Assembly: GCA_903862935.1 (NCBI GenBank)
Contig: CAIOZY010000057.1
Span: 1-64,000, forward strand
Length of the DNA stretch: 64,000 nt
Source: an uncultured Opitutaceae bacterium
GTDB taxonomy: Bacteria > Verrucomicrobiota > Verrucomicrobiia > Opitutales > Opitutaceae
Direction: 5' to 3'
Numbering within the stretch: the stretch's first letter is position 1; the number at the start of each line of letters is the position of its first letter. Both the position numbers and the translations under genes were made by a program. The notes under the pieces are model-generated. The model was given only the letters and a program-made list of their open reading frames with translations. It did not search any database and was not told the DNA's origin. Shown piece after piece: positions 7,021 through 23,351 of this stretch.

Positions 7021-8124
7021 ATGACATCCCGGGAGAGAATGAGATTGGTTTTAAGCGGAAAGCTTCCCGATCGGGTTCCGTTCTTCCCCACGATCTTCAC
7101 CGATCATGCCTGCATCGCCTCGGGCAAGAGGTTCGAGGATGCACTCATCAATCCCGCGGTCGGGGCGGATTGCATGCTGTCCGCTGCCTTGCGCTACCGG
7201 ACGGACGTCGTGCGCTTTCCGTTCGGACCCGCGTCGGCCTGGTACGAGGAGAAGTTTGTCGCCGAGCTCGACGGGAGGCTAACCCAGTTCTCTCGTGCAA
7301 CTGGGAAGGCCGAGGGGCGTTTCGACGTAGAGGGCGGTGGGATGTTTATACCGCTGAATCCGCCGCCCCAGGTCCGCACGGCCGCGGATGTCGCCTCAAT
7401 CCCCGTCCCCACGGCGGAGGAATACCTCCAGCGGGGATACCTCAAAGATGTCATCCGGTGCGCCCAATCCGCCCATGACAGCGGGCTGTTCACGGTTGGC
7501 ATGTGCGCGGGGCAGACCATCAACTTCATGGTGGAGAAGATGGGAGGCACAGAGCCGGCTCTGCTCCTGTTCTACGACGATCCCGCGCTCGCCCGAGCCC
7601 TTATCGACAAGGCCGTGGCGATCTCGATCGAAAAGGCCAAGGCTTTTGTGCGGGCTGGCGTGGACTGCCTCTACATTGGCGACTCTTACGCGTCCGCAAG
7701 CGTCATCTCCCCGGACTTCTACCGAGATTTCTGCAAGCCGGCATACACCATTCTCGCCCACGAGGTCCACGGCATGGGCGTGTTCTGTTACAAGCACTGT
7801 TGCGGCAACTACAATCCCCTGCTCGACGAACTTCCGTCCGTGGGGCTCGACGCCATGGATGGAATCGATCCTACGAGCGGGATGAGCGTGAAGCACACCA
7901 AGGAGAGGGTAGGCGGCAGCCTAACGCTCATGGGGGGATTGAGCTGCCTGACGCTCCTCAAGGGGACCCCGGCGGCAGTTCGCGACGAGGCCATGCGTTG
8001 TGTCTTGGACGGGAAGCCCGGTGGCCGTTATGTCTTGGGCAGCGCGTGCGCGGTGCCCCGTCACACCCCAGCGCAAAACCTGATGGCCGCGAGGGACGCG
8101 GCGGTCGAGTTTGGCGCTTACTAG
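7021..8124 (+). CDS. UroD/MtaA-family corrinoid-dependent methyltransferase
   Basis: A 367-residue protein of the uroporphyrinogen decarboxylase superfamily, in the branch of methylcobalamin methyltransferases (MtaA, CmuA) and not of haem synthesis. The N-terminus MTSRERMRLVLSGKLPDRVPF is typical and fixes the start. The zinc-thiolate pattern of MtaA-like enzymes is visible: H259-x-C261 in KHCCGN and C343 in GSACAVPRHTP. It probably moves a methyl group between a substrate or thiol and a corrinoid protein. It opens a co-directional run of one-carbon genes, 30 bp ahead of the homocysteine-methyltransferase-like gene. The methyl donor cannot be read from sequence. A role in haem synthesis is unlikely given the Cys ligands and neighbours. 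Confidence 0.8.
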   Translation: MTSRERMRLVLSGKLPDRVPFFPTIFTDHACIASGKRFEDALINPAVGADCMLSAALRYRTDVVRFPFGPASAWYEEKFVAELDGRLTQFSRATGKAEGRFDVEGGGMFIPLNPPPQVRTAADVASIPVPTAEEYLQRGYLKDVIRCAQSAHDSGLFTVGMCAGQTINFMVEKMGGTEPALLLFYDDPALARALIDKAVAISIEKAKAFVRAGVDCLYIGDSYASASVISPDFYRDFCKPAYTILAHEVHGMGVFCYKHCCGNYNPLLDELPSVGLDAMDGIDPTSGMSVKHTKERVGGSLTLMGGLSCLTLLKGTPAAVRDEAMRCVLDGKPGGRYVLGSACAVPRHTPAQNLMAARDAAVEFGAY

Positions 8125-8154
8125 TCTTCTGCCGAGGTTGAGGAGAACACCGCT

Positions 8155-9051
8155 ATGAGCCGGAGCACGATTTTGAGCGCGATCCAGTCCGGGAAAACCC
8201 TGGTCTCCGACGGGGCTTGGGGCACATTCCTTCAAAGTAAGGGACTTCGGCCGGGCGAGTGCCCGGAATTGTGGTGCGTTGAGCGCCCCGCAGACGTGAG
8301 GGATGTGGCCCGAGCGTACGTCGAGGCTGGCGCCGACATGGTGGAGTCGAACAGCTTCGGCGGCACGCGATTCAAGCTCGAGATGTACGGCCTGGAGGCC
8401 CGTGTGGCGGAGATCAATGAGGCTGCGGCACGCCTCTCCCGAGAGGCAGCCGGACCTTCTCGGTGGGTCATCGCCTCAATGGGGCCGACCGGGAAGATGC
8501 TCATCACTGAGGAGGTGACCGAGGGCGACTTGTATGAAGCCTTCAAGGAGCAGGCGGTGGCGCTCGCCCGCGGGGGAGCCGACGCTCTGTGCATCGAGAC
8601 GATGACTGCCCTGGACGAGGCCTCGGTCGCTATCCGGGCGGCCAGGGAGAACACGGCCTGCGAGGTCATCTGCACCTTCACGTTCCAGCCCAGCGGGCCG
8701 GCGGGGTACCGCACGATGATGGGTGTGTCGCCCGCGCAGGCTGCAAGGGCGGCCCTGGAAGCCGGAGCCCACATCGTTGGCACGAATTGCGGCAACGGCT
8801 TGGGGCCGATGATCGAAATTGTGGCGCAGATGCGCGCGGCTGCCGGCTCGGCGCCGATCCTTGTGCACGCCAACGCCGGCTTGCCCAAGATTGTCGAAGG
8901 CGTGGATCTCTTCCCCGAGGGCCCTGAAGACATGGCGGGGAGGGTCGGGGCCCTGGTGACCGCCGGGGCGAACATCGTGGGCGGATGCTGTGGAACTACG
9001 CCAAATCACATCCGGGCGATCCGACGGGCAGTAGACTTATTGGGGGCTTGA
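8155..9051 (+). CDS. Homocysteine S-methyltransferase-family protein
   Basis: A 298-residue single-domain protein of the betaine-homocysteine methyltransferase / MetH N-terminal family. The zinc ligands are present: C212 in GTNCGNG and C278-C279 in GGCCGTTPNHI. It lacks the folate and cobalamin domains of full MetH. It could methylate homocysteine with a methyl group from a corrinoid or another donor, or act as a thiol-activating methyltransferase within the cluster. A GAGGAG ribosome site is about ten bases upstream of the ATG. Genes of this type often sit beside UroD-type methyltransferases. The methyl acceptor is inferred. Confidence 0.8.
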   Translation: MSRSTILSAIQSGKTLVSDGAWGTFLQSKGLRPGECPELWCVERPADVRDVARAYVEAGADMVESNSFGGTRFKLEMYGLEARVAEINEAAARLSREAAGPSRWVIASMGPTGKMLITEEVTEGDLYEAFKEQAVALARGGADALCIETMTALDEASVAIRAARENTACEVICTFTFQPSGPAGYRTMMGVSPAQAARAALEAGAHIVGTNCGNGLGPMIEIVAQMRAAAGSAPILVHANAGLPKIVEGVDLFPEGPEDMAGRVGALVTAGANIVGGCCGTTPNHIRAIRRAVDLLGA

Positions 9052-9253
9052 TCTGTCGTCCGAGCTTCAGGGGGAGGCTGTTCTTACGCTTGTAATGCTA
9101 TTGACGGATAATGGAATAGGATTCTCAGGTTTGGTGTTTATCACCAGATGTCCGATGCGGGTTTGGCGAAAGTGGGCACAATAGTGCTAAAAAACGCATA
9201 GAAATCCAAGCATTCGGGGCGGCCCACCTGCTAGTCTGGCGTCCGTTACTCCG

Positions 9254-10828
9254 ATGCCCACCCTTGCACAGAGGCTCGAATCCTCCACAGACTTCGTCAT
9301 CGGGGTCGAGCTTGTCTCGACCCGCGGCCTACTGACCGAAACGCGCGCCGCCAAGACCCAATCCTTTGCGAGGGATCTGGCGGGCTACGCCAGCGCCGAC
9401 TGGGTCTCGATCACCGACAATGCCGGCGGCAATCCCATGCTGTCACCGCTGGCCCTGGGCCTGCCGCTCAAGCAGGCGGGTCGGAACGTGCTGATCCATC
9501 TTTCCTGCAAGGACCTCAACCGAAACGCGCTCGAGAGCACGGCCTGGCTGCTCGGGAGCGAGGGGCTGCACAACGTCCTCGCGCTGAGCGGGGACTTCGC
9601 CGGGGCCGGCGTGGCTGGTGGTTCGAAGCCCGTGTTCGATACCGACTCGGTCGGGCTGCTCGTTCTTCTCGGGCGGATGAACGCCGGATTGGACGTCACG
9701 CGCTCGCCCGGCACCGGGACCCCGGTCAGGCTCCAGCCGACGCAGTTTTTCCCGGGGGCTGTCGTCAATAACTTCAAGCTGCACGAGAACGAACAGGTGC
9801 CGCAGCTGCTCAAGATGGAGCGCAAGATCGCGGCCGGGGCCCGGTTCATCATCAACCAGATTGGCTACGATGCCCGGAAGACCCACGAGTTGCTCGCATG
9901 GATGAGCCAGAGGGGCCACGCGGGGATTCCCGTCATTGGCAACACGTTCGTCCTCTCCGGTCCGGCGGCCAGGGTATTTCACGCCCGGAGGATCCCCGGG
10001 GTCGCGATCTCTGATGAGCTGGCTGCGCTGTGCGAGCGCCAAGCCGGGGGTGCAGACAAGGGCAAGGCGTTCTTCCTGGAACTTGCCGCTAAGCAGGTCG
10101 CAATTTACCGGGGCCTAGGCTACCGGGGCGCCTATCTGGGAGGCGTGCACACGGTCGCGGACGTCGAGCGCATCCTCCAGCTCGAGAGAGGCTTCTCTCC
10201 CGGAGACTGGCGCCAATTTGCGCGCGAGATCAGGTACTCCCGCAGCGGCGAGTTCTTCATGTACGCCGAGGACGAGGCCACCGGGCTGGCGAACCCCGCC
10301 CAGCGGCACCCAGCCTACGAGGCCTCGCTGCGGAAGAGGCCCGCAAACCGCAACGTCACGCTCAGCTACCGAATTGCGAAGATGACGCACTCGGCCATGT
10401 TCACCCCGGGCAAGGGCCTGTGGAAGCTCGGAGCCGGTCTGTGCCGGAGGGCTTCCAATCCCGCGCAGGGCCCGGCACTGATGCACGCCGTGGAGCGCGC
10501 CGGAAAAAAGATGATGTTCGACTGCCGGGACTGTGGAGACTGCTCGCTTCCCGATATCGCTTACCTTTGCCCGGAGTCGCAGTGCGAGAAGAACCAGCGC
10601 AACGGCCCGTGCGGCGGAACCAGCGACGGCCGCTGTGAGCACAAGGAGGAAAACGAGTGCATCTGGGCGCGGGCCTACGACCGGCTCCGGTACGAGGGCC
10701 GCGAGGAGGAGCTCCTCGCCCACGTTCCGGTTATCCAGGATCAGGCCCTTAGGGGCACCTCGAGCTGGGCCAATACGTGGCTAGGCAAAGACCATTTCTC
10801 AAAGAAACTCTTCTCCAAGACCCCCTGA
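9254..10828 (+). CDS. metF: Methylenetetrahydrofolate reductase fused to MetV-like C-terminal domain
   Basis: A 524-residue fusion. Residues about 10-310 form the MetF TIM barrel that binds FAD and folate. From about 415 onward is the MTHFR_C (MetV-like) domain with a cysteine cluster starting at C424 (CRDCGDCSLPDIAYLC) and the signature KNQRNGPCGG. In acetogens MetV is a separate subunit with zinc/iron-sulfur ligands that supports electron transfer to MetF; here it is fused. It interconverts methyl-THF and methylene-THF. In this cluster the oxidative direction would feed methyl groups toward formate, the reductive direction would make methyl-THF. A 202-bp gap before the gene may hold its own promoter. 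Confidence 0.85.
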   Translation: MPTLAQRLESSTDFVIGVELVSTRGLLTETRAAKTQSFARDLAGYASADWVSITDNAGGNPMLSPLALGLPLKQAGRNVLIHLSCKDLNRNALESTAWLLGSEGLHNVLALSGDFAGAGVAGGSKPVFDTDSVGLLVLLGRMNAGLDVTRSPGTGTPVRLQPTQFFPGAVVNNFKLHENEQVPQLLKMERKIAAGARFIINQIGYDARKTHELLAWMSQRGHAGIPVIGNTFVLSGPAARVFHARRIPGVAISDELAALCERQAGGADKGKAFFLELAAKQVAIYRGLGYRGAYLGGVHTVADVERILQLERGFSPGDWRQFAREIRYSRSGEFFMYAEDEATGLANPAQRHPAYEASLRKRPANRNVTLSYRIAKMTHSAMFTPGKGLWKLGAGLCRRASNPAQGPALMHAVERAGKKMMFDCRDCGDCSLPDIAYLCPESQCEKNQRNGPCGGTSDGRCEHKEENECIWARAYDRLRYEGREEELLAHVPVIQDQALRGTSSWANTWLGKDHFSKKLFSKTP

Positions 10829-10847
10829 ACCCCCCCTCCGCCCCATC

Positions 10848-11711
10848 ATGCCAATCCCCGGCCTCATCATCATTGGGGAATCGATCAACGATTCCGTCCC
10901 GTCAACCCATCAGCTGTTCGAGACCCGGGACATTGCGGGTCTTAAGGAGCTGGCTGTCTCCCAGGATATGGGAGGGGCCGCCTACATCGATGTCAACGTG
11001 GGCCGCAATTCCGGGGCCTTCCTTGCGGAGATGGTGGGCCACGTCCAGAGCGTCACGGTCAAGCCGCTGTCGATCGACACACCCGACCCCGTTATGGCCG
11101 AGGCGGGATTGAAGGCCTATGACCGCGCCCGGGCTGGGGGCCGCATACCCATCCTCAACTCGATCTCGCCCCTGCGGCTCGAGATGCTTGACCTGGTCCG
11201 GATCGGTCCGTTCATGCCCGTCCTTCTCGCCTCGGAGCGCAGTGAGAACGGCGTCGGCATGGCAAACCACACCGCTGAGGAGGTCTATGCGACCGCCAGG
11301 CAGCTGGTCGGGGAAGCGGCAAAGCACGGTATTCCGGTGGAGCACTGCATCATCGATCCGGCGATCGCGCCGATTGGCGCGGATTCGGAAGGGGGCTTTC
11401 GCAGGCTCATGGGGGCCATCCGCATGATCCACGAGGATCCCGCTCTCCGGGGGGTCCACATGTCGGTGGGCCTGAGCAACTTCACCGTCATGATCTCTCC
11501 CAAGCGGGCGGACGGTTCGCCCACCAAGTCCCCGCTCGAGAGTGCGTTCCTGACCTTGGCCATGCCCTTGGGGCTCGACCACGTCATCGGCTCGGTCAAG
11601 CGCAAGTATGAGGTCCTGGCGCCCGACCATCCGGCCCTCGTCTGCCTGAACGACTGCCTGAAGCTAGACGGCTTCGACGTCATCATGCGTGTCCAGGAAT
11701 TCTACTCCTAA
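10848..11711 (+). CDS. AcsE/MtgA-like methyltetrahydrofolate:corrinoid methyltransferase
   Basis: A 287-residue pterin-binding TIM-barrel protein related to dihydropteroate synthase and to the MeTr enzymes AcsE and MtgA. Recognisable points are GESIN near the N-terminus, VKPLSIDT for pterin contact, [10 protein letters not shown] and [10 protein letters not shown]. Length is close to AcsE (about 262 residues). It would move a methyl group between a corrinoid protein and THF, the second step after the UroD-type enzyme. It starts 20 bp after metF and its end nearly touches the formate-THF ligase gene. No corrinoid protein is encoded next to it; the one at 58051-58686 is the only candidate in the window. 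Confidence 0.85.
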
Positions 11712-11721
11712 GCTCAACCCG

Positions 11722-13407
11722 ATGACTGCAAACCCCGTTCCCTCCGACATCGCAATCGCGCGGCAGGCCAAGGCCCGGCCGATCCAAGAAATCGCCGCCC
11801 GGCTGAATATCCCCATTGAGGAGATAGACCTGTTCGGCAAGTTCAAGGCGAAGGTGTCCCTCGATTTCTGCCGGAAAATGGAAAGCTCTGAGGCCGGCAG
11901 GCTGGTGCTTGTAACTGCGATCACCCCGACCCCGGCCGGCGAGGGAAAGACGACGACCACCGTCGGCCTGGGCGACGCCCTGAACCGCATAGGCAAGCGG
12001 GCCGCGATCTGCCTGCGCGAGCCGTCCCTGGGCCCGTGCTTCGGGATCAAGGGTGGGGCGGCCGGGGGCGGCTACGCCCAGGTCATCCCGATGGAGGAAA
12101 TCAACCTCCACTTCACAGGCGATTTTCACGCGATAACCACTGCCCACAACTTGCTGTCCGCCGTGATCGACAACCACCTCGCCCACGGCAACGCCCTGAA
12201 CATCGACCCGGCTCGCATCGTTTGGAAGCGGGTCATGGACATGAACGACCGGTCGCTCAGGCACATCGTAATCGGCCTGGGCGGCACCTCCAACGGGGTC
12301 TGCCGCGAAGGTGGTTTCGACATCACCGTGGCCTCCGAGGTGATGGCGATCCTTTGCCTGTCCCGGTCGGTCGCCGAACTGAGGGAACGCCTCGGGCGCA
12401 TCATCATCGGCTACACGCGGGAAAAGGCGCCGGTCACCGCAGCCCAGCTGAAGGTCCATGGAGCGATGGCGGTCCTTTTGCGCGACGCGCTGAAGCCCAA
12501 CCTCGTCCAATCGCTCGAGGGCACCCCTGCCTTTGTGCATGGCGGCCCGTTCGCCAACATCGCGCACGGATGCAACAGCGTGGTCGCAACCAAGCTGGCC
12601 CTGCGCCTTAGCGAGTATGTCGTCACCGAGGCCGGCTTCGGGGCGGACCTTGGGGCCGAGAAGTTTATCGACATCAAGTGCCGGGCGGCCGGCCTCAGGC
12701 CGAGCGTGGTGGTGATCGTGGCCACGGTTCGCGCGCTCAAGATGCACGGCGGGGTGGCGAAGGCGGATCTCAAGATCCCAAACCCCAAGGCTGTTGGCCT
12801 GGGCTTGGTGAACCTCGAGAAGCACCTGGAGAACATCAAGAGTTTTGGGCTTCCTGCGGTCGTCGCTATCAACCACTTCACCGCAGACACTGCTGAGGAA
12901 GTGGCTCTCGTCGAGGCGCGCTGCCGAGAGCTCGGTGTAGAGGCGGTGGTTGCGAGGCACTGGGCCGAAGGCGGGGCCGGCGCAGAGGGGCTTGCGCGCA
13001 AGGTCGTGGAGCTGGCCAATCGGCCGGCGGGAGCCTTCCGGTTTGCCTATCCGGACGAGATGGAACTCTGGGAGAAGGCGCGGACAATCGCTCGCCAGAT
13101 TTACGGGGCCGACGACATTGTCGCGGATTCAAAGGTGCAGGCCCGCTTCCGGGAGCTGGAGAAGGCCGGATACGGGCGGCTTCCAATCTGCATGGCGAAA
13201 ACCCAGTACTCATTCTCTGCGGATCCGACTTTGCGCGGGCGCCCCCGCGGGTTCACCGTGCCCATCCGCGATGTCGCGGTTTCGGCTGGAGCGGGATTTG
13301 TCGTTGTTTTGACCGGCGACATCATGACCATGCCGGGCCTTCCCAAGGCTCCGGCTGCCGAGCAAATCGACATCAACGAGGACGGGGAGGTCGTCGGTCT
13401 GTTCTAG
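11722..13407 (+). CDS. fhs: Formate-tetrahydrofolate ligase
   Basis: A 561-residue enzyme making 10-formyl-THF from formate, THF and ATP, or running in reverse to yield formate and ATP. The P-loop-like [13 protein letters not shown] is near residues 60-75; [14 protein letters not shown] and the C-terminal [10 protein letters not shown] motif are intact. I start it at the ATG at 11722, just after the previous stop (11711); a GTG at 11689 would add eleven residues that overlap the upstream gene. Full length for bacterial FTHFS. It lies between a folate methyltransferase and a formate-type transporter, which points to a one-carbon pathway ending or starting at formate. Confidence 0.95.
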
Positions 13408-13483
13408 GCCCCTCATGGTCGGGTCGCAGTGGAGCCTGGTGCTCCAGCGTCGATCCTGACCGGACGGGTCTTTCGAAGCGATT

Positions 13484-14752
13484 ATGCGTAACAAAGTACC
13501 GGACCGTCGGCTGATCGCCGTGGCGGGGATCCTGATGCAGGCGGCCATGGGGGCGGTCTATGCGTGGAGCGTCTTCAGGCTTCCTCTAATGAGGAGCTAC
13601 GGGTGGACCGTCTCCCAAGTGACGATGGTCTTCGAATTGGCGATCTTCATGCTGGGCGTTTCGGCCTTCGCTGGCGGATTGTGGATCAAGCGCTCCGGCC
13701 CCCGCCCCGTGGCGATCGCCGGGGGGCTGTGCTACGGCTTGGGAGTGGTGCTTGCGGGGCGAACCGGGGGGCACCTCGCGCTGCTCTACCTGACCTATGG
13801 CGTTTTGGGCGGAATCGGGCTGGGCCTGGGGTACATCGTACCGGTGACGACCCTGCTTCGCTGGTTTCCGGACCGGCGCGGGATGATCACCGGGCTTGCC
13901 GTGGCCGGGTTCGGCTCGGGGGCCCTCGTGACCGCACCGGTCGCGCAGGCCCTTATCTCGCGGATCGGGGTCGCGGACACGTTCACGGTCCTGGGCGTAC
14001 TCTATCTTGCCATGGTCTGCGGCTCGGCTGCCCTCATGAGGAACCCCCCCGAGGGATACAGCCCGGCCGGATGGAAGCCGCTGTCGGAAGGCAGCCAGGG
14101 GAGCGGGGGGAAGGACTTCGCGCTCGGGGAGGCCCTGAGGACCTGGCAGTGGTACGCACTGTGGGCGATCTTGTTTCTCAACACGCTTGCGGGCATCGCC
14201 CTGATTTCCCAAGCGTCCCCCCTCGCTCAAGAACTGACCCACGTGTCCGCGGCCGCGGCCGCTGGCCTGGTGGGAATTATCTCGATCGCAAACGGAGCGG
14301 GCCGATTTCTGTGGTCGTGGGCTTCCGACTTTATTGGGCGCAGGCGAGTCTTCATAATCATGTTCATCCTGCAGGCCATCGCCTTCGCGCTGCTCGCTCG
14401 GACCCACAGCTTTGCGGGGTTGACGGTTCTGGCGTTCGCTGTGCTGCTCTGCTACGGCGGAGGCTTTGGAACGATGCCGGCTTTGACGGCCGACTATTTC
14501 GGCACCCGCAACGTCGGCTCGGTCTATGGACTGATGCTCACGGCGTGGGGTTGCGCCGGGCTGGTGGGCCCAGCCCTAATCGCGTTCGTGCGGGAGGCCA
14601 CGGGATGTTATACGTGGGCCTTCGTCCTGACTTCCGGGATCCTCGTCGCTGGCGCCGCCCTGACCCTCGCAATCCGGCGGCCTCGCAGCGAGGAACAGGA
14701 AGCCACCCCGGCTGGGAACCCGTCCGCGAGGCTTGCAATGCCGCTGAGGTAG
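13484..14752 (+). CDS. OFA-family MFS transporter (oxalate/formate antiporter type)
   Basis: A 422-residue major facilitator with about 12 membrane helices. The start MRNKVPDRRLIAVAGILMQ, then GAVYAWSVFRLPL and GLGLGYIVPVTTLLRWFPDR, are characteristic of the oxalate:formate antiporter family. Substrates across this family include oxalate, formate and other small monocarboxylates. Directly following fhs, export of formate is the simplest reading, but lactate export (made by the nearby rhamnose genes) or formate uptake fit as well. Confidence 0.8.
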   Translation: MRNKVPDRRLIAVAGILMQAAMGAVYAWSVFRLPLMRSYGWTVSQVTMVFELAIFMLGVSAFAGGLWIKRSGPRPVAIAGGLCYGLGVVLAGRTGGHLALLYLTYGVLGGIGLGLGYIVPVTTLLRWFPDRRGMITGLAVAGFGSGALVTAPVAQALISRIGVADTFTVLGVLYLAMVCGSAALMRNPPEGYSPAGWKPLSEGSQGSGGKDFALGEALRTWQWYALWAILFLNTLAGIALISQASPLAQELTHVSAAAAAGLVGIISIANGAGRFLWSWASDFIGRRRVFIIMFILQAIAFALLARTHSFAGLTVLAFAVLLCYGGGFGTMPALTADYFGTRNVGSVYGLMLTAWGCAGLVGPALIAFVREATGCYTWAFVLTSGILVAGAALTLAIRRPRSEEQEATPAGNPSARLAMPLR

Positions 14753-14770
14753 GGGACAGTTCTAGGCGAA

Positions 14771-15445
14771 ATGCCTATCGAAGCCCCGACTGACCTCGCA
14801 GAGTGGCGCAAGCAGCAGAGGAGAATCCTGCTCGCCCGGAGGCTCTCCATTAGTTTCGAGGACCGTGTCCGCTGGAGCCAGACGATCGCACTATTCTTGC
14901 AGCAGGGATTTCCCTTGCTCAGCCGGATGGCGGTCGGCTTCTGCTGGCCCTACAAGGGCGAGTATGACGCGAGGCCTCTGATGCGGATCTTGCTCAGCCA
15001 GGGCGGGCGGGCTGCCCTTCCGGCGGTTCACGCGAAGGGCGAGCCCCTGCAGTTCCGCGAATGGACGCCGGGGGCCGCGATGAAGCCGGGGGCTCTGGGT
15101 ATCCCAGTGCCGGAAGGCACCCGGGTTCTGGTTCCGGACGCCCTCCTGATCCCGCCGGTCGGTTTCGGGGAAAAGGGGGGACGCCTGGGATACGGCGGCG
15201 GCTACTTTGACAGGACGCTGGCGTCGCTTTCACCCCAGCCACTGAAGATCGGGGTAGCGTTCGAGGTTTCCCGGATGCCGACCATTTTTCCCCAGCCCCA
15301 CGATGTGCTGATGGACTTCATCATCACGGAAGCCGGGATCCACGCTGTCGGGTTGGACGGCCTGCGGGTGATTGACCCGGCCGAGTGCGCTCGCATGGAG
15401 GCGAGGATCATTCAGGAGCGCGGCCTTCCCCGAGCCCAAGCCTAG
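14771..15445 (+). CDS. 5-formyltetrahydrofolate cyclo-ligase family protein
   Basis: A 224-residue protein with the family signature GGRLGYGGGYFDR near residue 140 and an N-terminal basic helix WRKQQRRILLARR. It converts 5-formyl-THF to 5,10-methenyl-THF with ATP, recovering a dead-end folate that builds up where serine and one-carbon flux are high. Its place at the end of the one-carbon run supports a dedicated folate role. It converges with the DeoR gene, 19 bp apart. Confidence 0.9.
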   Translation: MPIEAPTDLAEWRKQQRRILLARRLSISFEDRVRWSQTIALFLQQGFPLLSRMAVGFCWPYKGEYDARPLMRILLSQGGRAALPAVHAKGEPLQFREWTPGAAMKPGALGIPVPEGTRVLVPDALLIPPVGFGEKGGRLGYGGGYFDRTLASLSPQPLKIGVAFEVSRMPTIFPQPHDVLMDFIITEAGIHAVGLDGLRVIDPAECARMEARIIQERGLPRAQA

Positions 15446-15464
15446 TCGGGACCTGGCGAGCCGC

Positions 15465-16271
15465 TCAGGGCGAGGGCTTGCGACGTGTGAGCGGGTTTGC
15501 GGTGAAGATCTTGCTCCCGGGGAGGATGATGCCGGCTTCTCTAAGCTCCCGCGCCGTCGCCTCCGTAAGGAGTCCGTCCACACGAGACCAAGGCAGGAGG
15601 AAAGCGGGGGTTTTGCGGCCGAGCTTAGTGGCGTCCAGGCAGCAGACAACGCGGCGGCTCCGGGTAGCGACCTTCCGCTGGAAAGCCACGATGTCGGCCT
15701 GGGAGTTCCACAAGCCGGCCGGCGTCATCCCCTCGGCGCTGAGCAGGGCAAGGTCAAAGCGCCACAAAGCGGCGCTTCGCTGCGCTTGTGGCCCCACAAG
15801 GATCGACTGCCGAGCCAGAAACTCGCCGCCCACCAACTGGACCGTGATAACTTTAGAGCCCCCTAGAGCCTCGGCGAGATGTAAGGCGTTAGTGACCGCT
15901 GTGATTCGAGAAACAGGATGGCTGGCCAACGCCTCGCCGATGGAATATATCGTGGTTCCGGCATCGAAAAACACCGTCATTCCCGGCCGCAGCATTCTGA
16001 GCGCCGCCTGGGCAAGCCGCCGCTTCGAGGCCTGCGCCTTGCGCTGCCGCGCCCGGAACGATGGGAAGCGGCGGTCGTAGTCGCCGAGGGCCCCACCGTA
16101 GGTGCGGGTGATAATGCCCTCGCGCGCTAGGGCCGCCAGGTCGCGGCGGGCTGTGGCGGGGGAGACCCCCAGGCGGCGGCACACCCGCGCCAGGGTGAGG
16201 TAGCCGTGGCGCCGGAGTTGGCGCGCGAGGGCGTTGCGGCGCGCCTCGACCACGTGAAACGCCACTCTCAT
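15465..16271 (-). CDS. DeoR-family transcriptional regulator
   Basis: A 268-residue regulator if started at the ATG at 16271; a longer frame starts at 16307. The N-terminal helix-turn-helix is ARVCRRLGVSPATARRDLA with the DeoR-type continuation ALAREGIITRTYGGAL. The C-terminal part is a sugar-phosphate sensor domain with FFDAGTTI, VTNALHLAEAL and LVGGEFLARQS, typical of DeoR/GlpR proteins. It is transcribed away from the class II aldolase gene, and the shared 98-bp gap carries an inverted repeat. It likely represses the deoxysugar genes until a sugar phosphate binds. Confidence 0.9.
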   Translation of the reverse strand: MRVAFHVVEARRNALARQLRRHGYLTLARVCRRLGVSPATARRDLAALAREGIITRTYGGALGDYDRRFPSFRARQRKAQASKRRLAQAALRMLRPGMTVFFDAGTTIYSIGEALASHPVSRITAVTNALHLAEALGGSKVITVQLVGGEFLARQSILVGPQAQRSAALWRFDLALLSAEGMTPAGLWNSQADIVAFQRKVATRSRRVVCCLDATKLGRKTPAFLLPWSRVDGLLTEATARELREAGIILPGSKIFTANPLTRRKPSP

Positions 16272-16302
16272 GGGTACGGAGTCACGTCTGTATATGAGCG
16301 AG

Positions 16303-16339
16303 GTCAATCATAAATGGATGGATCAGCGTTAGGATTGAC
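16303..16339. promoter_or_regulatory. Inverted repeat in the deoR/aldolase intergenic gap, candidate operator
   Basis: GTCAATC (16303-16309) and GATTGAC (16333-16339) form a perfect 7-bp inverted repeat with 30 bp from one arm start to the other, about three helical turns. It lies between the divergent DeoR and aldolase genes. The right arm contains TTGACG, a possible -35 element for the rightward operon. Function is inferred from position. Confidence 0.4.
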
Positions 16340-16369
16340 GTCGATCTTAGAGAGCTCATTGCTGAAGGC

Positions 16370-17125
16370 ATGTCCGACCATGCTTCTATTGAAGGAGCCC
16401 TGTTGACACTCTCCCGGGAGCTCGGCCGAGAGGACCGCGGTCTCGCCATCCTAGGAGAGGGTAACACGTCAGCCCGGCTCACTGAGGAGACATTCCTGGT
16501 TAAGGCGAGCGGTTCGAGCTTAGGAACTCTGTCGCCGGCAGACGTCACAGCGTGCCGCTTCGACCGGCTTGTCCCGCTCCTGCAGAGGAAAGGCATGACG
16601 GATGCGGCGATTGACGCGGCCCTCTTGGAGGCCCGGGTCGACCCGACTTCCCGTAAGCCCTCGGTCGAGGCCGTCTTTCACGCTTATCTGCTCTCCTTGC
16701 CGGGGGTGAACTTCGTCGGGCACACCCATCCAATCAACGTCAACAGCTTGCTCTGCTCGGATCAGGCAAGGACTTTTGCTAAGCGCCGGATCTTCCCGGA
16801 TCAGGTGGTGTGCTGCGGGGTGGAAAGCGTCTTTATCCCCAACACGGATCCTGGGCTCAGATTGGCGCAGGCAATCGAGAAGGCTGTCACCGCCTTCCTA
16901 GGCAGGCTCTCCCGGTTGCCCCGGGTGATCCTGTTGGAAAACCACGGACTGATCGCGATGGGGAGCACCTCGGCGGCGGTCCTTGCGGCAACGCTGATGG
17001 CTGAGAAGTCTGCCCGGATTTTCGCCTCAGCCCCCGGCGGGCCCCGGTTCTTGACACCGGCCCAAGTGGCGCGGGTGGCAGACCGTCCCGACGAACTCTA
17101 CCGCCAACGGGTCCTCGGAATCTGA
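16370..17125 (+). CDS. Class II aldolase/adducin-family protein
   Basis: A 251-residue zinc-dependent class II aldolase relative (fuculose-1-phosphate aldolase/RhaD superfamily). The substrate motif GEGNTSAR near residue 30, metal ligands in GHTHPINVNSLL and the third His in LLENHGLIAMG are intact. It would cleave a ketose 1-phosphate to DHAP and an aldehyde, or act as a decarboxylase or epimerase as some relatives do. Next to it is a larger fusion with its own aldolase domain, so the two must differ in substrate or one is regulatory. First gene of the rightward sugar operon. Confidence 0.85.
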   Translation: MSDHASIEGALLTLSRELGREDRGLAILGEGNTSARLTEETFLVKASGSSLGTLSPADVTACRFDRLVPLLQRKGMTDAAIDAALLEARVDPTSRKPSVEAVFHAYLLSLPGVNFVGHTHPINVNSLLCSDQARTFAKRRIFPDQVVCCGVESVFIPNTDPGLRLAQAIEKAVTAFLGRLSRLPRVILLENHGLIAMGSTSAAVLAATLMAEKSARIFASAPGGPRFLTPAQVARVADRPDELYRQRVLGI

Positions 17126-17143
17126 GGCGCAAGATCCTCCGCC

Positions 17144-19336
17144 ATGCCGAAATACCGCCACGTCAGTTACCTATGGGATGAGGCGAAGGCTGCGACCCTC
17201 GATCCGCTGGGGAGGTTGGTCTACCGATCGAACCTTCTTGGAGCTGACCTGCGGATAACCAACACAGGAGGAGGTAACACCTCATCGAAGGTCACTGACA
17301 GGGACCCGCTCACGGGGGAGGCGGTCGAGGTGCTTTGGGTCAAGGGATCCGGGGGAGACCTGCGAACGGCCGGCAGAGGAAACTTCGCCTCGCTTGAGCG
17401 GAAGCGGCTCGAATCGCTGGCGAGGGGTTATTCGTCACGGCCAGACCGCGGGCTGAAGACCGTTGCCGAGGACGAAATGGTAGGCCTTTTCCCCCACTGT
17501 ACGTTTAATCTGAACCCGCGGCCCGCCTCGATCGACACCCCGCTGCACGCGTTTTTGCCCGGGCGCCATGTGGACCACATGCATCCTAACGCGATCATCG
17601 CGATCGCTGCGTCGGCGAACGGCGAGCGCCTTACGCAGGAGATTTTCGGCGGGAAAATGGCCTGGGTTCCGTGGATGAGGCCGGGTTTCGAACTTGGCCT
17701 GGCCATGCAGCGCATTGCCCGGGAACGGCCCGGGATCCGGGCCATCATGATGGGCCAGCATGGGTTCATCTCGTGGGCGGACGACGACCGAGAGTGCTAC
17801 TGCGGGACGCTGGCTTGGATCGAAACGGCCGCAGCCTATATCGAGGGCCAGTATGCGGCTCGCGGGGGCGACGCCGCTGCCTTTGGCGGCGCGAGGCACC
17901 CCATGCTCGGGCCCGAACTGCGCCGGACGACCTTTGCCGCGATCCTGCCTTGGCTGAGGGGGCAACTGTCCAACGATCGACGGCTCATAGCGACAGTCCA
18001 GGACGACGATGCCATCCTCAGGTTCGTCAATTCCGCCGACGCCCAGAGGCTTGCGCAACTCGGCACGTCCTGCCCGGACCACTTCTTGCGCACCAAGATT
18101 AGGCCGCTGTACGTGGACTGGGATCCGCGGTCGGGTGAGTTGGCTGCGTTGAAGCGCAAGCTCGCTGAAGGAATCTCGAGCTACCGGGCCGACTACGAGG
18201 CCTACTATAGGCGGTGTCGCAGGGCGGATTCTCCGCCGATGCGCGACCCCAGTCCGACGGTGACCCTCATTCCTGGCCTGGGCATGATCGGCTGGGGAAA
18301 AGACAAGTCGGAGAGCCGGGTCACGGCCGAGTTTTATCGCTGTGCGGTGGAGGTGATGAGGGGTGCGGAGGCCATCGACCGCTATGTGGCGCTGCCCGAA
18401 CAGGAGGCTTTTGACATCGAGTACTGGGCTTTGGAGGAGGCCAAGCTTCGGCGGATGCCTCAGGAGAAGGAGATGGCCCGCCGGGTGGTGGTCGTCGTCG
18501 GCGCGGGCTCGGGCATTGGGCGGGAGACCGCGTTGCGGCTGTCCAGGGAGGGGGCCCATGTGGCATGCGTGGACCTCGATGGGAATGCCGCCCTGGCTTG
18601 TGCGGAGGCGATCACCGCCGAACGGGGGCAGGGGATCGGGGTCGCCGGGACCGGTCTTTCCGCGTGCGGACCGGCCGTTGGGGTACCGGCCAATATCACC
18701 GACCGAGCCAGCATCCGCCAGGCGCTCGACCAAGTCGTCGTGGCCTACGGCGGCATCGACTCGCTGTGCGTCACGGCGGGCATTTTTGTGCCCTGCGACC
18801 CCCGGGGGCGCATCCCCGACGACACTTGGCAGCTCACCTACGCAATCAATGTGAGCGGAATCTACTTGGTGGCCGACGAGGCGGCGCGTATTTGGAGGGA
18901 GCAGGGACTGACGGGGAGTCTTGTCATCGCAACGTCGGCGAATGCGGTGGTCGCTAAGCGGGGTTCCATCGCCTACGATACATCAAAGGCCGCGGCCAAT
19001 CACCTGGTGAGGGAGCTTGCGATCGAGCTCGCTCCCCTGGTGCGGGTCAATGGCGTTGCGCCCGCGACTGTGGTCCAGGGGTCGGCCATGTTCCCGCGCA
19101 AGCGGATCATCGGCTCGCTGGCCAAGTATCGCATCGCCTACCGGGAGGATGAGTCGACTGCATCCCTCACGGAGAAACTCGCCCAATTCTACGCTGAGCG
19201 CACGCTCACCAAGTCCCCCATTACCCCGGGCGATGTCGCCGAGGCGTGCGTTATGCTGGTCGGAGGAAAGCTCTGCAAGACCACGGGTCAGATCATCGCG
19301 GTCGACGGGGGCCTTCCGGAGGCGTTCCTGCGGTGA
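17144..19336 (+). CDS. rhaD: Bifunctional rhamnulose-1-phosphate aldolase/short-chain dehydrogenase
   Basis: A 730-residue fusion known from non-enteric rhamnose pathways (RhaEW/RhaDA type). Residues about 1-420 are a class II aldolase with TNTGGGNTSSK, the metal-binding VDHMHPNAI and MMGQHGF. Residues about 440-730 are an NAD-dependent short-chain dehydrogenase with VVGAGSGIG and the catalytic Y-x-x-x-K in AYDTSKAAA. The pair splits L-rhamnulose 1-phosphate to DHAP and L-lactaldehyde and oxidises the lactaldehyde to lactate. Its stop overlaps the GTG start of rhaB as GTGA. Activity on L-fuculose 1-phosphate is possible. Confidence 0.9.
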   Translation: MPKYRHVSYLWDEAKAATLDPLGRLVYRSNLLGADLRITNTGGGNTSSKVTDRDPLTGEAVEVLWVKGSGGDLRTAGRGNFASLERKRLESLARGYSSRPDRGLKTVAEDEMVGLFPHCTFNLNPRPASIDTPLHAFLPGRHVDHMHPNAIIAIAASANGERLTQEIFGGKMAWVPWMRPGFELGLAMQRIARERPGIRAIMMGQHGFISWADDDRECYCGTLAWIETAAAYIEGQYAARGGDAAAFGGARHPMLGPELRRTTFAAILPWLRGQLSNDRRLIATVQDDDAILRFVNSADAQRLAQLGTSCPDHFLRTKIRPLYVDWDPRSGELAALKRKLAEGISSYRADYEAYYRRCRRADSPPMRDPSPTVTLIPGLGMIGWGKDKSESRVTAEFYRCAVEVMRGAEAIDRYVALPEQEAFDIEYWALEEAKLRRMPQEKEMARRVVVVVGAGSGIGRETALRLSREGAHVACVDLDGNAALACAEAITAERGQGIGVAGTGLSACGPAVGVPANITDRASIRQALDQVVVAYGGIDSLCVTAGIFVPCDPRGRIPDDTWQLTYAINVSGIYLVADEAARIWREQGLTGSLVIATSANAVVAKRGSIAYDTSKAAANHLVRELAIELAPLVRVNGVAPATVVQGSAMFPRKRIIGSLAKYRIAYREDESTASLTEKLAQFYAERTLTKSPITPGDVAEACVMLVGGKLCKTTGQIIAVDGGLPEAFLR

Positions 19337-20763
19337 GATTGGTGACCGCCATCCATTGTGTTGCAGTCGACCTGGGCGCCTCGAGCGGGCGTGTTATCGT
19401 CGGTTCGTGGAGCCGGGATCAGCTCGCGCTAAACGAGGTCCACCGGTTTCCCAACCAATTTCATTCACTAGGGGACAACGACTACTGGGACGTGCCCTCG
19501 CTGTGGTCCGAGGTCAGGTCGGGCCTGCTCAAGGCCAGGCACGGCTTCTCACGCCTAGCCTCGGTTGGAGTCGACACCTGGGGGGTCGACTACGCGCTGG
19601 TGGACATAGCGGGTCGACTGGTCTTTCCGGTGCACGCCTACCGCGACCCCAGGACAAAGGCCGGCCTAAGGCGCCTGGCAGCACGGGGTCTTGGCGCCGT
19701 CTACGAGGAGACGGGCGTCGCCAATGTTTTCTACAACACAAGCCTCCAGCTGGAGGAGACGCTGCGCACGTTTCCGGCGATTAAGCGTCTGGCCGACCGC
19801 TGCCTATTCCTGCCCGACTACTTCAATTTCCGACTGTCGGGTCGCATGGTGAACGAGCTGTCGATTGCGAGCACGTCGCAATTGCTCGATGTGTCCGGCA
19901 CCGGCTGGTCAGCGGCGGCCCTTCGGCGCTTTGGGGTGCCGCGCCGCTGGCTTTCTCCTCCGGTCAAGGCGGGAACCCTCCTGGGCCCCGTGCTCGATCC
20001 GCTTGGGATGAGGAACATCCAGGTTGTCGCTGCTCCCGGGCACGACACGGCCTGCGCATACGACGCCATGGTGGCAAGTCCGGACGGATCGGATATCTAC
20101 GTGAGCGCAGGCACCTGGTCGCTCGTCGGCTATGAAAGCGAGGTGCCGCTTCTCGGGCGGAAGGCCCTCAAGGCCGGGATTTCGAACGAACGAACGGGCT
20201 ACGGCCGCTACCGCCCGCTCATCAATGTTGTTGGATTGTGGCTCCTTGAAGGACTCCTGACCGACTTCGCCGTCCGCCCACGGAGGCGCAGCGATTGGAA
20301 CGCGCTGATAACCGCCGCAGAGGGTAGGGCGGCTCCCCAGGCCCTGCTTGACGTGGACGATCCCGCGTTCGCAAACCCTGACTCCATGCGGGAGGCGATC
20401 GATGCTCATCTGCGCAACCGGGGCTGCCGCCCGCCGTCGGACCTAGCCGCTTACCTGAGACTCATCTGTGACTCCCTCGGGAGGGGCCATGCGGCGGCGG
20501 TCGATGTGCTCGAACGGCTGTCTGGCCGCACCTTCAAACGCATTCTGATAGTTGGTGGCGGGGCCAAGAACAGGCTGCTTTGCCAGGCGACCGCAAACGC
20601 CTCCAATAGGCCGGTCGTCGCCTTGACGATTGAGGGGGCGGCGGTGGGCAATCTCGCCGCCCAGCTGATCGCTCTCGGCGCGGTGGGAGACCTCGCGAGT
20701 TTTCGCGAGAATTATGGCCGGCAGGTTCCCCAGCGCGTCTACCGCCCATGCCACGGCGGCTAA
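19333..20763 (+). CDS. rhaB: Rhamnulokinase (FGGY family)
   Basis: A 476-residue sugar kinase of the FGGY family. AVDLGASSGRVIVGSW at the N-terminus is the rhamnulokinase form of the phosphate-1 motif; GVDTWGVDYALVD, APGHDTACAYDA and the ATP-site GGGAKNRLLCQATAN match RhaB. E. coli RhaB is 489 residues, so this is full length. I start it at the GTG that overlaps the rhaD stop (GTGA) since the motif starts soon after. It phosphorylates L-rhamnulose before the aldolase. The isomerase that makes rhamnulose is not in this window. Confidence 0.9.
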   Translation: MRLVTAIHCVAVDLGASSGRVIVGSWSRDQLALNEVHRFPNQFHSLGDNDYWDVPSLWSEVRSGLLKARHGFSRLASVGVDTWGVDYALVDIAGRLVFPVHAYRDPRTKAGLRRLAARGLGAVYEETGVANVFYNTSLQLEETLRTFPAIKRLADRCLFLPDYFNFRLSGRMVNELSIASTSQLLDVSGTGWSAAALRRFGVPRRWLSPPVKAGTLLGPVLDPLGMRNIQVVAAPGHDTACAYDAMVASPDGSDIYVSAGTWSLVGYESEVPLLGRKALKAGISNERTGYGRYRPLINVVGLWLLEGLLTDFAVRPRRRSDWNALITAAEGRAAPQALLDVDDPAFANPDSMREAIDAHLRNRGCRPPSDLAAYLRLICDSLGRGHAAAVDVLERLSGRTFKRILIVGGGAKNRLLCQATANASNRPVVALTIEGAAVGNLAAQLIALGAVGDLASFRENYGRQVPQRVYRPCHGG

Positions 20764-21020
20764 CGTCCTTGCCCCGTATCTGTGAGGAGAGTTCCTGGGC
20801 TGGCTGCCCTGGTTGACCCGCCATGCAGGGCTTCGGGCATGAGAGGATCAACCGCATGGCGGCCTGGGGACTTCGTCCAGTCCCGCAGCGGGAGCCAAGC
20901 ATGCTGGAACAAGGGGCGGACAGAGGCGGGATTATTGCGCTCGCCTGCGGTTTGGGGGTAGGAGATGATCGGGACTGCTCGCCCGGGAGGAACCCGCAGG
21001 GCGGGCTCGGAAAGGCCCCT

Positions 21021-22097
21021 ATGAACAGCAAGCAAAGAGTCATTGCAGCAGCGCGGAGGCAGCCCACGGATCGGCCGCCGACGAGCCTTCGCCTCACACC
21101 GGAGGCGCTCGCCGCCCTGGAGACCCACCTGGGCGTGAAGTCCCAGAACGCCGTCATGGACGCACTCGGCGTCGACCTGCGCTGGCTGCGCCTGCCCTTC
21201 ATCGGGCCCAAGGAACGGTCGGCTGTTCCGCTCGGCAGCGAGGGGACCGACTTCTGGGGATGCCACTTCTGCAAGGTGTCGAACGAGTACAACACCTATT
21301 TTGAGTTCGACCGCCATCCGCTCGCGCAGGCGAAGACCGTCGAGGACGTGCACAACCACGACTGGCCGAGCCTGGACTGGTGGGACTATGCTTCGCTGGC
21401 GGCCACGATCGACGAGGTCAACTGCAAGGAGGAGAGGGCATTCCTTTTCATGGCCGGGGGCGCCTTTGAGACACCGTGGTACATCCGCGGGATGGAGCAG
21501 TTCCTCATGGACCTCTACGAAAACCCCGAGATCGCCGAGGCGATCTGCACGCACGTCGAGGAGTACTACCGGCAGCGCGCCCTTCGGGTCATCGACGCCG
21601 TCGGCGACCGGCTGACGATTGTGGGCTCCGGGGGGGACATTGGCACCCAGCGGGGAATGATGCTCGACCCCGAGCTGTGGCGGGCGCAGATCAAGCCGCA
21701 CAGCACCAAGCTGATCGCGCCCTTCAGGAAACTCGGGTTTGCCACCTTCTACCATTCGGACGGCTCCATCGTTCCGGTGATCAACGACCTGATCGAGATG
21801 GGGCTCGATATCCTCGACCCGATCCAGGTGGGAGCGACGGGAATGAACCCCGAGGAGCTCTTTCCCCTCTTCGGAGATCGGCTGTCGTTCCACGGGGCGA
21901 TCGACGAGGTGGAACTGCTGCCCCACGCGACCCCAAAGCAGGTCTACGACGAGACGACCCGGACGATCGACATCCTGGGCAGGAACAACGGCTACATCGT
22001 GTCCCCGACTCACCAGATTCAGGGGGACACGGCCCCCGAGAACGTGGTCGCCATTTTCGAGGCCGCCCGCAACTACCGCCGGCGCGCGCCGGGCTGA
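21021..22097 (+). CDS. UroD-superfamily methyltransferase-like protein
   Basis: A 358-residue protein. I start it at the ATG at 21021 (MNSKQRVIAAARRQPTDRPP), preceded by GGAAAGG. It belongs to the uroporphyrinogen decarboxylase superfamily, in a branch common in anaerobic and PVC genomes, with GGDIGTQRGMMLDPELWR, YHSDGSI and the C-terminal SPTHQIQGDTAPEN. Where MtaA-type enzymes have H-x-C, this one has H-S-D, so it probably does not bind zinc the same way. It may demethylate a methoxylated compound onto a corrinoid protein. It lies 257 bp after rhaB on the same strand, linking sugar and methyl genes. The substrate is unknown. Confidence 0.7.
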   Translation: MNSKQRVIAAARRQPTDRPPTSLRLTPEALAALETHLGVKSQNAVMDALGVDLRWLRLPFIGPKERSAVPLGSEGTDFWGCHFCKVSNEYNTYFEFDRHPLAQAKTVEDVHNHDWPSLDWWDYASLAATIDEVNCKEERAFLFMAGGAFETPWYIRGMEQFLMDLYENPEIAEAICTHVEEYYRQRALRVIDAVGDRLTIVGSGGDIGTQRGMMLDPELWRAQIKPHSTKLIAPFRKLGFATFYHSDGSIVPVINDLIEMGLDILDPIQVGATGMNPEELFPLFGDRLSFHGAIDEVELLPHATPKQVYDETTRTIDILGRNNGYIVSPTHQIQGDTAPENVVAIFEAARNYRRRAPG

Positions 22098-22295: not shown

Positions 22296-23351
22296 GTGAG
22301 CCCGGCCCGCTGGTGGGCGATGCGCCCCGACGGCCGCATCGAGTGCCGGCTCTGCCCGCGGGCCTGCAAGCTGCGGGACGGGCAGAGGGGCTTCTGCTTC
22401 GTGCGGCGGCGGGTCGGGGATGCGATGGAGCTGTCGACCTACGGCCGCACGAGCGGGCTTTGCGTCGATCCCATCGAGAAAAAACCGCTGAACCATTTCC
22501 TGCCGGGGACAAGCGTCCTGTCGTTCGGAACCGCCGGGTGCAACCTGGGCTGCCGGTTCTGCCAGAACTGGAGCCTGAGCAAGGCCCGGGATTGGGACCG
22601 GATGGGCGAGGCGGCAACGCCCGAGGAGATCGCCGGCGCGGCCGGGAGCCTGGGCTGCCCCTCGGTCGCCTTCACCTACAACGACCCGGTGGTCTTCGCC
22701 GAGTACGCAATCGACACCGCGCGGGCCTGCCGGGCCCGCGGGATCAGGACGGTCGCCGTCACCGCAGGCTACATCACGCCGGAGGCCCGGGCCGACTTCT
22801 TCCGGGAGATGGACGCGGCCAACGTCGACCTGAAGGGTTTCACCGAGGGGTTCTACCGCAGGCTCTGCCTGTCCGAACTCCAGCCGGTGCTGGACACCCT
22901 CGTGTACCTGCGGCGCGAGACCCGCGTCTGGCTCGAGGTCACCACGCTGCTGATCCCCGGGGAGAACGACAGCGCGCAGCAGATCGACCGGGTCTCCGAC
23001 TGGTTTGCGGACAAGCTCGGGGTCGACGTCCCATGGCATTTTACGGCATTCCACCCGGACTTCAGGATGCTCGGGCACCCTCCGACGCCGCCCGAGACCC
23101 TCGCGCGGGCTCGGAAGGTCGCCCGATCCAAGGGCCTGCGGTATGTTTACCTGGGCAACGTCCGGGATTCCGACGGGGGGAGCACCTGGTGCCCGTCGTG
23201 CGGGGATCTGCTGGTGGAGCGGCGCGGCTACGACGTGCGCGTCCGCGGTCTTATTGGGGGCCGCTGCGGACGGTGCGGCTGCGAGATCCCCGGGGTGTTC
23301 GCAGGCAGCCCGGGAGGCAGGCCCGCGGCGGCTACCGGGCGTCGATCTTGA
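22296..23351 (+). CDS. Radical SAM protein of the AmmeMemoRadiSam (AmrS-like) type
   Basis: A 351-residue radical SAM enzyme. The iron-sulfur motif CNLGCRFC gives C82, C86 and C89; an N-terminal Cys cluster (ECRLCPRACKL) and a C-terminal zinc-ribbon-like CPSCG...CGRCGC flank it. VDPIEKKPLNHFLPG and NVDLKGFTEGFYR match the radical SAM partner of MEMO and AMMECR1 proteins. The GTG start has a GGAGG site seven bases upstream. Unlike the paralog at 49014-50309 it has no export leader and no MEMO/AMMECR1 gene beside it. It follows the UroD-like gene by 198 bp and overlaps the end of the DUF192 gene tail to tail. Reaction unknown. Confidence 0.85.
   Translation: MSPARWWAMRPDGRIECRLCPRACKLRDGQRGFCFVRRRVGDAMELSTYGRTSGLCVDPIEKKPLNHFLPGTSVLSFGTAGCNLGCRFCQNWSLSKARDWDRMGEAATPEEIAGAAGSLGCPSVAFTYNDPVVFAEYAIDTARACRARGIRTVAVTAGYITPEARADFFREMDAANVDLKGFTEGFYRRLCLSELQPVLDTLVYLRRETRVWLEVTTLLIPGENDSAQQIDRVSDWFADKLGVDVPWHFTAFHPDFRMLGHPPTPPETLARARKVARSKGLRYVYLGNVRDSDGGSTWCPSCGDLLVERRGYDVRVRGLIGGRCGRCGCEIPGVFAGSPGGRPAAATGRRS

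Follow-up and report, generated by a model that had tools for sequence, protein, structure and literature searches.

A probable methyl-oxidation operon beside a separate deoxysugar operon in an uncultured Opitutaceae bacterium

The bacterial O-demethylases, for example those of Desulfitobacterium and Acetobacterium, consist of a first methyltransferase (MT-I), a corrinoid protein, a second methyltransferase (MT-II) and an activating enzyme. UroD/MtaA, MtaC, MT-II, MetF, FolD and Fhs make up a coherent route from methyl groups to formate, with ATP formed at Fhs, and O-methylated sugars such as 4-O-methylglucuronate, 2-O-methylfucose and methyl-rhamnoses are common in the polymers of plants and algae. 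For engineered Acetobacterium woodii, homoformatogenesis from methyl groups is reported, for which hdcr had to be deleted, and caffeate supplied for formate to be the sole product (PMC10284823). Type 1 mlp clusters are read as serving methyl-sulfur/selenium metabolism, and the three clostridial examples described are without a folate methyltransferase (PMC10418091). Here we describe a gene cluster at positions 7,021–22,097 of a 64,000-nucleotide (nt) stretch (the window) of contig CAIOZY010000057.1 from an uncultured Opitutaceae bacterium (GenBank assembly GCA_903862935.1), in which one-carbon (C1) genes adjoin genes of the rhamnose (rha) type. The first-pass annotation of this DNA had joined the two gene sets in a single pathway. 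We find no conserved linkage between them in relatives, and think it probable that the cluster comprises a central operon for methyl oxidation and, next to it, a deoxysugar operon of independent function.

Gene content and transcription units

The C1 half, on the forward strand, begins with UroD1 (7,021–8,124; Pfam URO-D, 131 bits), an MtaA/SCMT-like methyltransferase of the UroD superfamily, and HcyMT (8,155–9,051; Pfam S-methyl_trans, 230 bits), a thiol methyltransferase resembling BHMT and the N-terminal domain of MetH. There follow a fusion of methylene-tetrahydrofolate (THF) reductase and DUF5981, MetF-MetV (9,254–10,828; MTHFR 39 bits, DUF5981 89 bits), an AcsE-like methyl-THF:corrinoid protein methyltransferase of the MT-II type (10,848–11,711; Pterin_bind, 49 bits), the formate-THF ligase Fhs (11,722–13,407; NF010030, 913 bits, above the cut-off), an OFA-superfamily MFS transporter for a monocarboxylate, formate or lactate (13,484–14,752), and a 5-formyl-THF cyclo-ligase (14,771–15,445; TIGR02727, 134.5 bits, above the cut-off), the intergenic gaps being, in order, 30, 202, 19, 10, 76 and 18 nt. 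A DeoR-family regulator gene on the reverse strand (15,465–16,307) converges on the last gene of the C1 operon across a 19-nt gap and is divergent, across 62 nt, from the forward-strand gene for the class II aldolase Ald2 (16,370–17,125). Ald2 is followed on the same strand, after gaps of 18 and 5 nt, by the rhamnulose-1-phosphate aldolase/dehydrogenase fusion RhaD-ADH (17,144–19,336; NF006189, 1063 bits) and the FGGY kinase of the RhaB type (19,342–20,763; Pfam FGGY_N/C). UroD2 (21,021–22,097, forward; Pfam URO-D, 75 bits), a UroD/MtaA-fold protein of the H-x-[CD]-G ... P-x-H subgroup, lies 257 nt beyond rhaB as counted from its probable start at 21,021, which we prefer to 20,823 because the majority of homologs begin there.

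Because the DeoR gene sits convergent to one half and divergent from the other, the cluster is made up of at least two transcription units, a C1 operon (7.0–15.4 kb) and a deoxysugar operon (16.4–20.8 kb). A scan for promoters and terminators found no more sites than in shuffled sequence. The genes named in the first-pass annotation are all present, in the order that it gave; every one of them runs rightward but that of the leftward DeoR regulator.

We infer the direction of flux, the substrate and formate as product. In our proposal, dispersed UroD-type methyltransferases would load methyl groups onto MtaC-type corrinoid proteins, from which the AcsE-like protein would move them to THF; MetF-MetV together with FolD would oxidise methyl-THF to formyl-THF, Fhs would release formate with a yield of ATP, the OFA-type transporter would export the acid, and HcyMT and UroD1 would serve as accessory transferases. 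The candidate carriers are an MtaC-like protein (58,051–58,686, forward; B12-binding and B12-binding_2), encoded in the same window about 36 kb from the C1/rha cluster, and two other host copies, with RACo encoded on another contig. Ald2, RhaD-ADH and RhaB would form a DeoR-controlled deoxysugar-phosphate operon like that of close relatives, and UroD2 may demethylate a sugar that this operon handles.

The host genome (G000; G numbers denote genomes and L numbers loci) spans 3.35 Mb in 62 contigs and is 95.6% complete. It encodes five B12-binding_2 proteins, one of them at 58.1 kb of the window and three of them MtaC-like, a single RACo (contig 43, C43:50124), and a second MetF-MetV (contig 16, L028) accompanied by MtaC and a FolD-like gene. 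No carbon monoxide dehydrogenase/acetyl-CoA synthase (CODH/ACS; PF03598, CdhC) was found in 57 genomes including the host, in a search whose control matched only two archaea and no bacterial positive; this absence makes methyl oxidation to formate the likeliest role of the C1 genes.

The nearest PDB match of HcyMT is the MetH N-terminal domain (methionine synthase entries 1q7m and 8g3h). The AcsE-like protein scored 113 bits on NCBIfam PRK07535, below the cut-off of 259, and its profile came closest in PDB to 4o0q and 2yci, with 2e7f also matched; 4o0q is labelled only 'dihydropteroate synthase DHPS', and we take it to be the methyltransferase of an O-demethylase. By homology, the AcsE-like protein would be an MT-II, passing methyl groups from a corrinoid protein to THF. 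The transporter scored 426 bits on the NCBIfam 'L-lactate MFS transporter' model NF049980 (cut-off 320) and fell below the cut-offs of the oxalate/formate models; its counterparts adjoining Fhs elsewhere scored 320.5 (L200) and 315.5 bits (L221) on NF049980.

Recurrence of the C1 core and its linkage to rhamnose genes

Full-length relatives of MetF-MetV are encoded by 18 of 115 genomes, the host being one of them, and their clusters are of three kinds by neighbours. In the first, a LigM-like protein accompanies MetF-MetV (the one tested, that of L029, matched GCV_T), in some cases together with a UroD; in the second, the companions are RACo, UroD, MtaC and a distantly related AcsE (29–36%), not always as a full set; in the third, represented by the host, G027, G033, G045 and G050, they are a close AcsE and Fhs. 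In G027 the third-kind cluster lies next to an island that combines 12 UroD genes with HcyMT, MtaC and RACo (L047/L094), that of G050 reaches the end of its contig after a UroD and HcyMT, and G033 and G050 have similar UroD islands, but on other contigs. Such islands (L094, L096, L126, L191) hold up to 12 genes of several subfamilies, each island surrounding one MtaC and one RACo. The names LigM, PocR, FolD and MetH were given by eye or by mutual similarity, without a family model, except for GCV_T in L029 and B12-binding_2 in the MetH frame described below.

When named genomes were searched with a profile built from five AcsE-like proteins, 216 relatives came up. We kept 80 loci with flanks of up to 10 kb, often shortened by contig ends; at least four are the same contigs as in G027, G033, G045 and G050, and 63 of the 80 belong, by record title, to Verrucomicrobiota or Planctomycetota. 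Near AcsE we counted Fhs in 52 loci, MetF-MetV in 48, HcyMT-like proteins in 24 (HcyMT-MetF fusions counted), MtaC in 20, any UroD in 15, an OFA-like transporter in 14, a PocR-like regulator in 11 and RACo in 3. The clearest counterpart, L221, has RamA, DUF1638 and a PocR-like gene leftward and MtaC-MetFV-AcsE-Fhs-OFA-HcyMT-UroD rightward, so that all four O-demethylase components lie in one cluster, as they do not in the window. The C1 half of the first-pass annotation is therefore supported, in that other genomes carry the core alongside a corrinoid protein, an activase, a UroD and a transporter of the OFA type; the join to rhamnose catabolism as one pathway is not.

These loci bear on two other accounts of the C1 operon. 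One is purely anabolic, with formate passing by way of methyl-THF to methionine through a split synthase (HcyMT, the AcsE-like protein and MtaC) and no catabolism at all. These three proteins jointly match the domains of MetH, and the cyclo-ligase is an enzyme of folate housekeeping. However, the host has a probable separate MetH on contig 33 (L186, 8,854–12,623), in two overlapping open frames, one HcyMT-like of 362 aa and the remainder of 894 aa with B12-binding_2, so that a purely methionine-forming role is less needed; the transporter gene recurs at AcsE loci, several UroDs, a PocR-like regulator or RACo stand beside the core in some of them, and MetF-MetV is confined to 18 of the relatives, all of which leaves the anabolic account improbable. 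In the other, the C1 operon would serve methoxylated aromatics, by O-demethylation of the lignin type, or methanol, the sugar genes being irrelevant. The AcsE-like protein and RACo resemble parts of aromatic O-demethylation systems, L029 pairs MetF-MetV with the GCV_T-domain gene, and two congeners of the host (G003, G006) have MtaB methanol systems. No MtaB was found in the host, however, where a UroD and an MtaC lie inside a uronate cluster, and no aromatic-catabolism gene was recognised in the window cluster; we regard this account as rather unlikely.

The MtaB/MtaC/RACo/DUF1638 cluster of the two congeners (L188, L189) also includes a Sugar_tr family transporter and a 764-aa fatty-acid-desaturase/Rieske/NAD-binding fusion (L188 was domain-scanned; L189 is assigned by the same gene order and similar sequence starts). 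In the RACo-UroD-MtaC-MetFV-AcsE clusters L040, L041 and L042, an arabinofuranosidase-domain gene stands between MtaC and MetF-MetV, its alpha-L-arabinofuranosidase C-terminal domain being a model match for L041 and assigned by similar sequence for L040 and L042.

The first-pass annotation, in which corrinoid demethylation of an O-methyl-6-deoxysugar would send the methyl group to formate and the sugar through RhaB and RhaD as a single unit, had proposed searching PVC genomes for co-occurrence of the two gene sets. RhaD is present in 58 of 141 relatives. Twenty of these rhaD loci, taken with flanks of about 8 kb in both directions (shortened by contig ends in L107, L110, L114 and L124), were checked by gene calls, tblastn and a six-frame UroD profile: none contained UroD, MetF-MetV, AcsE, Fhs, HcyMT, MtaC or RACo, and none of the 80 AcsE loci, with their often short flanks, contained RhaD, RhaB, Ald2 or DeoR. 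An Ald2-like sequence occurs in 10 of the 20 rhaD loci, and DeoR, Ald2, RhaD and RhaB stand together in two loci of the same genus (L108, L109); at this position L108 encodes a Fucose_iso_C-like protein (26.4 bits, cut-off 29.3), which the window lacks. Nor did MetF-MetV and RhaD co-occur more often than expected at genome level, RhaD being found in 10 of 18 genomes with MetF-MetV versus 37 of 97 others (p = 0.20, the 115-genome set being assumed to be G000–G114). Only two of the five close-core genomes, the host and G027, have RhaD; G033, G045 (83% complete) and G050 have the C1 core and UroD1 orthologs with no RhaD match. The host itself has neither RhaA (PF06134; RhaI-type and FucI-type isomerases were not searched for) nor RhaM (PF05336).

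For the single unit speak the adjacency of C1 and rha genes in the window, with UroD2 behind rhaB, and two arrangements elsewhere. MetF-MetV and RhaD lie within 35 kb of one another in 3 of the 10 genomes that have both (G000, G027 and G060; nominal p about 0.001 if random placement is assumed), although the nearby MetF-MetV of G027 and G060 is of the LigM-like kind with similar surroundings, and the two are perhaps not independent. In same-genus G010, RhaA and ABC-transporter genes convergently adjoin a UroD-MtaC-MetFV-AcsE-RACo cluster. Set against the linkage counts and the close-core genomes lacking RhaD, these leave the single pathway improbable.

The same two arrangements weigh against our own proposal of two neighbouring but independent operons, as do several further points: Fhs and MetF also run anabolically, so that flux direction cannot be read from sequence; the control for PF03598 was archaeal; no gene for a corrinoid carrier or RACo was found at 5–26 kb of the window; no UroD1 ortholog was found adjoining C1 genes; and the best curated name for the transporter is that of an L-lactate carrier.

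UroD proteins and their neighbourhoods at sugar loci

UroD1 matched the MtaA structure 4ay7 in a PDB search (E = 3.7e-17) with its H-x-C-G-N and later Cys motif aligned, and the zinc ligands H-x-C...C are conserved in that alignment, which puts UroD1 in the H,C,C class of the census of UroD sites given below; on the MtaA model TIGR01463 it scored 99.5 bits, below the cut-off of 235.4. Its orthologs (66%, 52% and 52% identity) agree with the start at 7,021, the three closest aligning from residue 1 or 2. UroD2 has the site H-S-D ... H and does not keep the MtaA/SCMT zinc ligands. Among the 143 distinct UroD proteins of more than 270 aa collected for the census, 12 have the site class H,C,C, 35 have H,C,H and 33 have H,D,H. 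A PDB sequence search with UroD2 gave no match. Its AF2 model (pLDDT 95.7; 35 sequences) aligned to HemE and MtaA alike, with a VIA Z of about 29 and an rmsd of about 3 Å over 307–314 residues (best 20 rows), so that the fold alone cannot separate a decarboxylase from a methyltransferase. D206, Q210, H245 and N341 are among eight positions invariant in the 35 sequences, and at H331 conservation is 90% or higher. UroD2 may plausibly be a methyl-deoxysugar demethylase.

Relatives of UroD2 occur in 14 of 384 genomes of the class (E 1e-55), host included. Of the two closest orthologs outside the family, that of G164 (64%) lies about 1.6 kb beyond a DeoR gene and a bacterial microcompartment (BMC) operon encoding a class II aldolase, an aldehyde dehydrogenase and PTAC, from which it is separated by a frame that by eye resembles a regulator, and that of G180 (63%) lies at a contig edge. 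The G164 arrangement favours the single unit discussed above; the closest ortholog of all (77%, G050), whose 16-kb contig is free of rha genes, argues against it.

Six genomes of the class, G057 (L164, 5,954–7,311), G393, G404, G174, G215 and G180 (the other five loci being L302, L304, L305, L318 and L321), have a UroD gene and rhaM next to each other on one strand, a further point for the single unit. In G057 the UroD gene overlaps rhaM by 4 nt and the pair is flanked on one side by GH106 and GH42 and on the other by a FucP-like MFS gene (just below the fucP cut-off), an SDR gene and an apiosidase-like gene; the surrounding 40 kb also include GH78, GH127 and OiaK/OiaX-like genes, the last below the cut-off. 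This gene set recalls a rhamnogalacturonan II locus, and that polymer bears 2-O-methyl-fucose (PMC12282258). G057 is not among the MetF-MetV matches of the 115-genome search. Its UroD matched proteins in 6 of 384 genomes of the class (E 1e-60): G393 keeps the UroD-RhaM pair (65% RhaM), as does G404 (55% RhaM), with MtaC and MtaB upstream; a Bac_rhamnosid6H gene adjoins the UroD in G386; a weak GH78 match lies near it in G279; and no RhaM was found in the stretches examined of G166 and G175 (about 40% identity). A UroD lies within 1.5 kb of RhaM in 3 of the 30 best RhaM loci versus 1 of 54 control stretches, which is suggestive only; one of the three, L330, has a gene between UroD and RhaM and is outside the six-genome count. 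On host contig 25, UroD genes and an MtaC, at 82% to the copy in the window, lie in the uronate cluster mentioned above, with UxaC, altronate dehydratase, MR_MLE, ADH, SDR and MFS genes. These associations of UroD with sugar genes are recurrent and are not proof of substrate. That a UroD demethylates a methylated deoxysugar may thus still hold, given the UroDs beside rhamnose genes elsewhere, though outside the single linked pathway in which the idea was first cast.

No sugar role common to all UroDs emerged when 119 of 126 immediate neighbours (7 of more than 900 aa were dropped) of 102 UroD genes, islands included, were compared with 119 random proteins from 178 of 181 control genes. In this weak test, which covered the 25 most frequent families out of 128 and 168, only corrinoid parts were in excess (S-methyl_trans 4, B12-binding 4, RACo 3), and the sugar families Aldo_ket_red (3), GH127 (2) and Sulfatase (2) were not clearly above control.

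On host contig 41 (L100, 9,802–19,358), two UroD genes precede by a few kb an operon resembling complex I or group-4 hydrogenase, a possible electron sink. Elsewhere in the window are a radical SAM gene (22,296–23,351; Pfam Radical_SAM) judged by eye to be of the AmrS type and a fusion of Memo and AMMECR1 (45,112–46,608), together the AmmeMemoRadiSam set, followed by a spermine-synthase-domain protein (46,613–48,811) and another radical SAM protein (49,014–50,309).

Implications and comparison with known systems

A wider reading is that, in Verrucomicrobiota and related bacteria, large families of UroDs of the H-x-[CD]-G...P-x-H type at sugar loci (the UroD-RhaM pairs, the locus resembling one for rhamnogalacturonan II, and UroD2 behind RhaB), with other UroDs at the uronate locus, are O-methyl-sugar demethylases feeding a shared, CODH/ACS-free methyl-to-formate operon. 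We offer this reading, which would amount to an anaerobic 'methyl-sugar methylotrophy' not described before, tentatively, and hold it somewhat unlikely. Among open-licence PMC titles we found none dealing with the removal of methyl groups from sugars by corrinoid systems or with this operon, and no described anaerobic route for demethylating O-methylated sugars. Probable methyl-stripping UroDs beside rhamnose genes in some relatives hint at undescribed use of methylated sugars, and the UroD-RhaM pair is a small enzyme set that is directly testable. If real, a methyl-to-formate operon without CODH/ACS, distributed across Verrucomicrobiota and Planctomycetota, would let its hosts supply formate to methanogens and other partners, and would be a natural counterpart of the engineered formatogenic growth of an acetogen (PMC10284823).

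Like the O-demethylase systems, the host has UroD-type MT-I candidates, an MtaC-type carrier, an AcsE-like MT-II and RACo; unlike them, its parts are dispersed, no CODH/ACS was found, and Fhs and a transporter lie inside the operon. The lack of detected CODH/ACS likewise sets it apart from Wood-Ljungdahl acetogenesis. The RhaB, RhaD-ADH and DeoR of the window are those of L-rhamnose catabolism of the RhaD-ADH type, from which the locus differs in its extra class II aldolase, in UroD2 downstream and in a host without RhaA or RhaM. As in the homoformatogenesis of A. woodii (PMC10284823), methyl groups would be converted to formate with ATP gained at Fhs, here by a putative natural operon, in bacteria without detected CODH/ACS, rather than by engineering. 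Compared with type 1 mlp clusters (PMC10418091), the islands of G027, G033, G050 and G010 are alike in combining several UroD/SCMT-like proteins with a corrinoid protein and RACo, whereas G027, L216 and L218 differ in having several UroDs and MtaC beside MetFV-AcsE-Fhs, and the window cluster, without carrier or RACo, differs from the mlp arrangement of Mlp2, Mlp3, corrinoid protein and RACo together.

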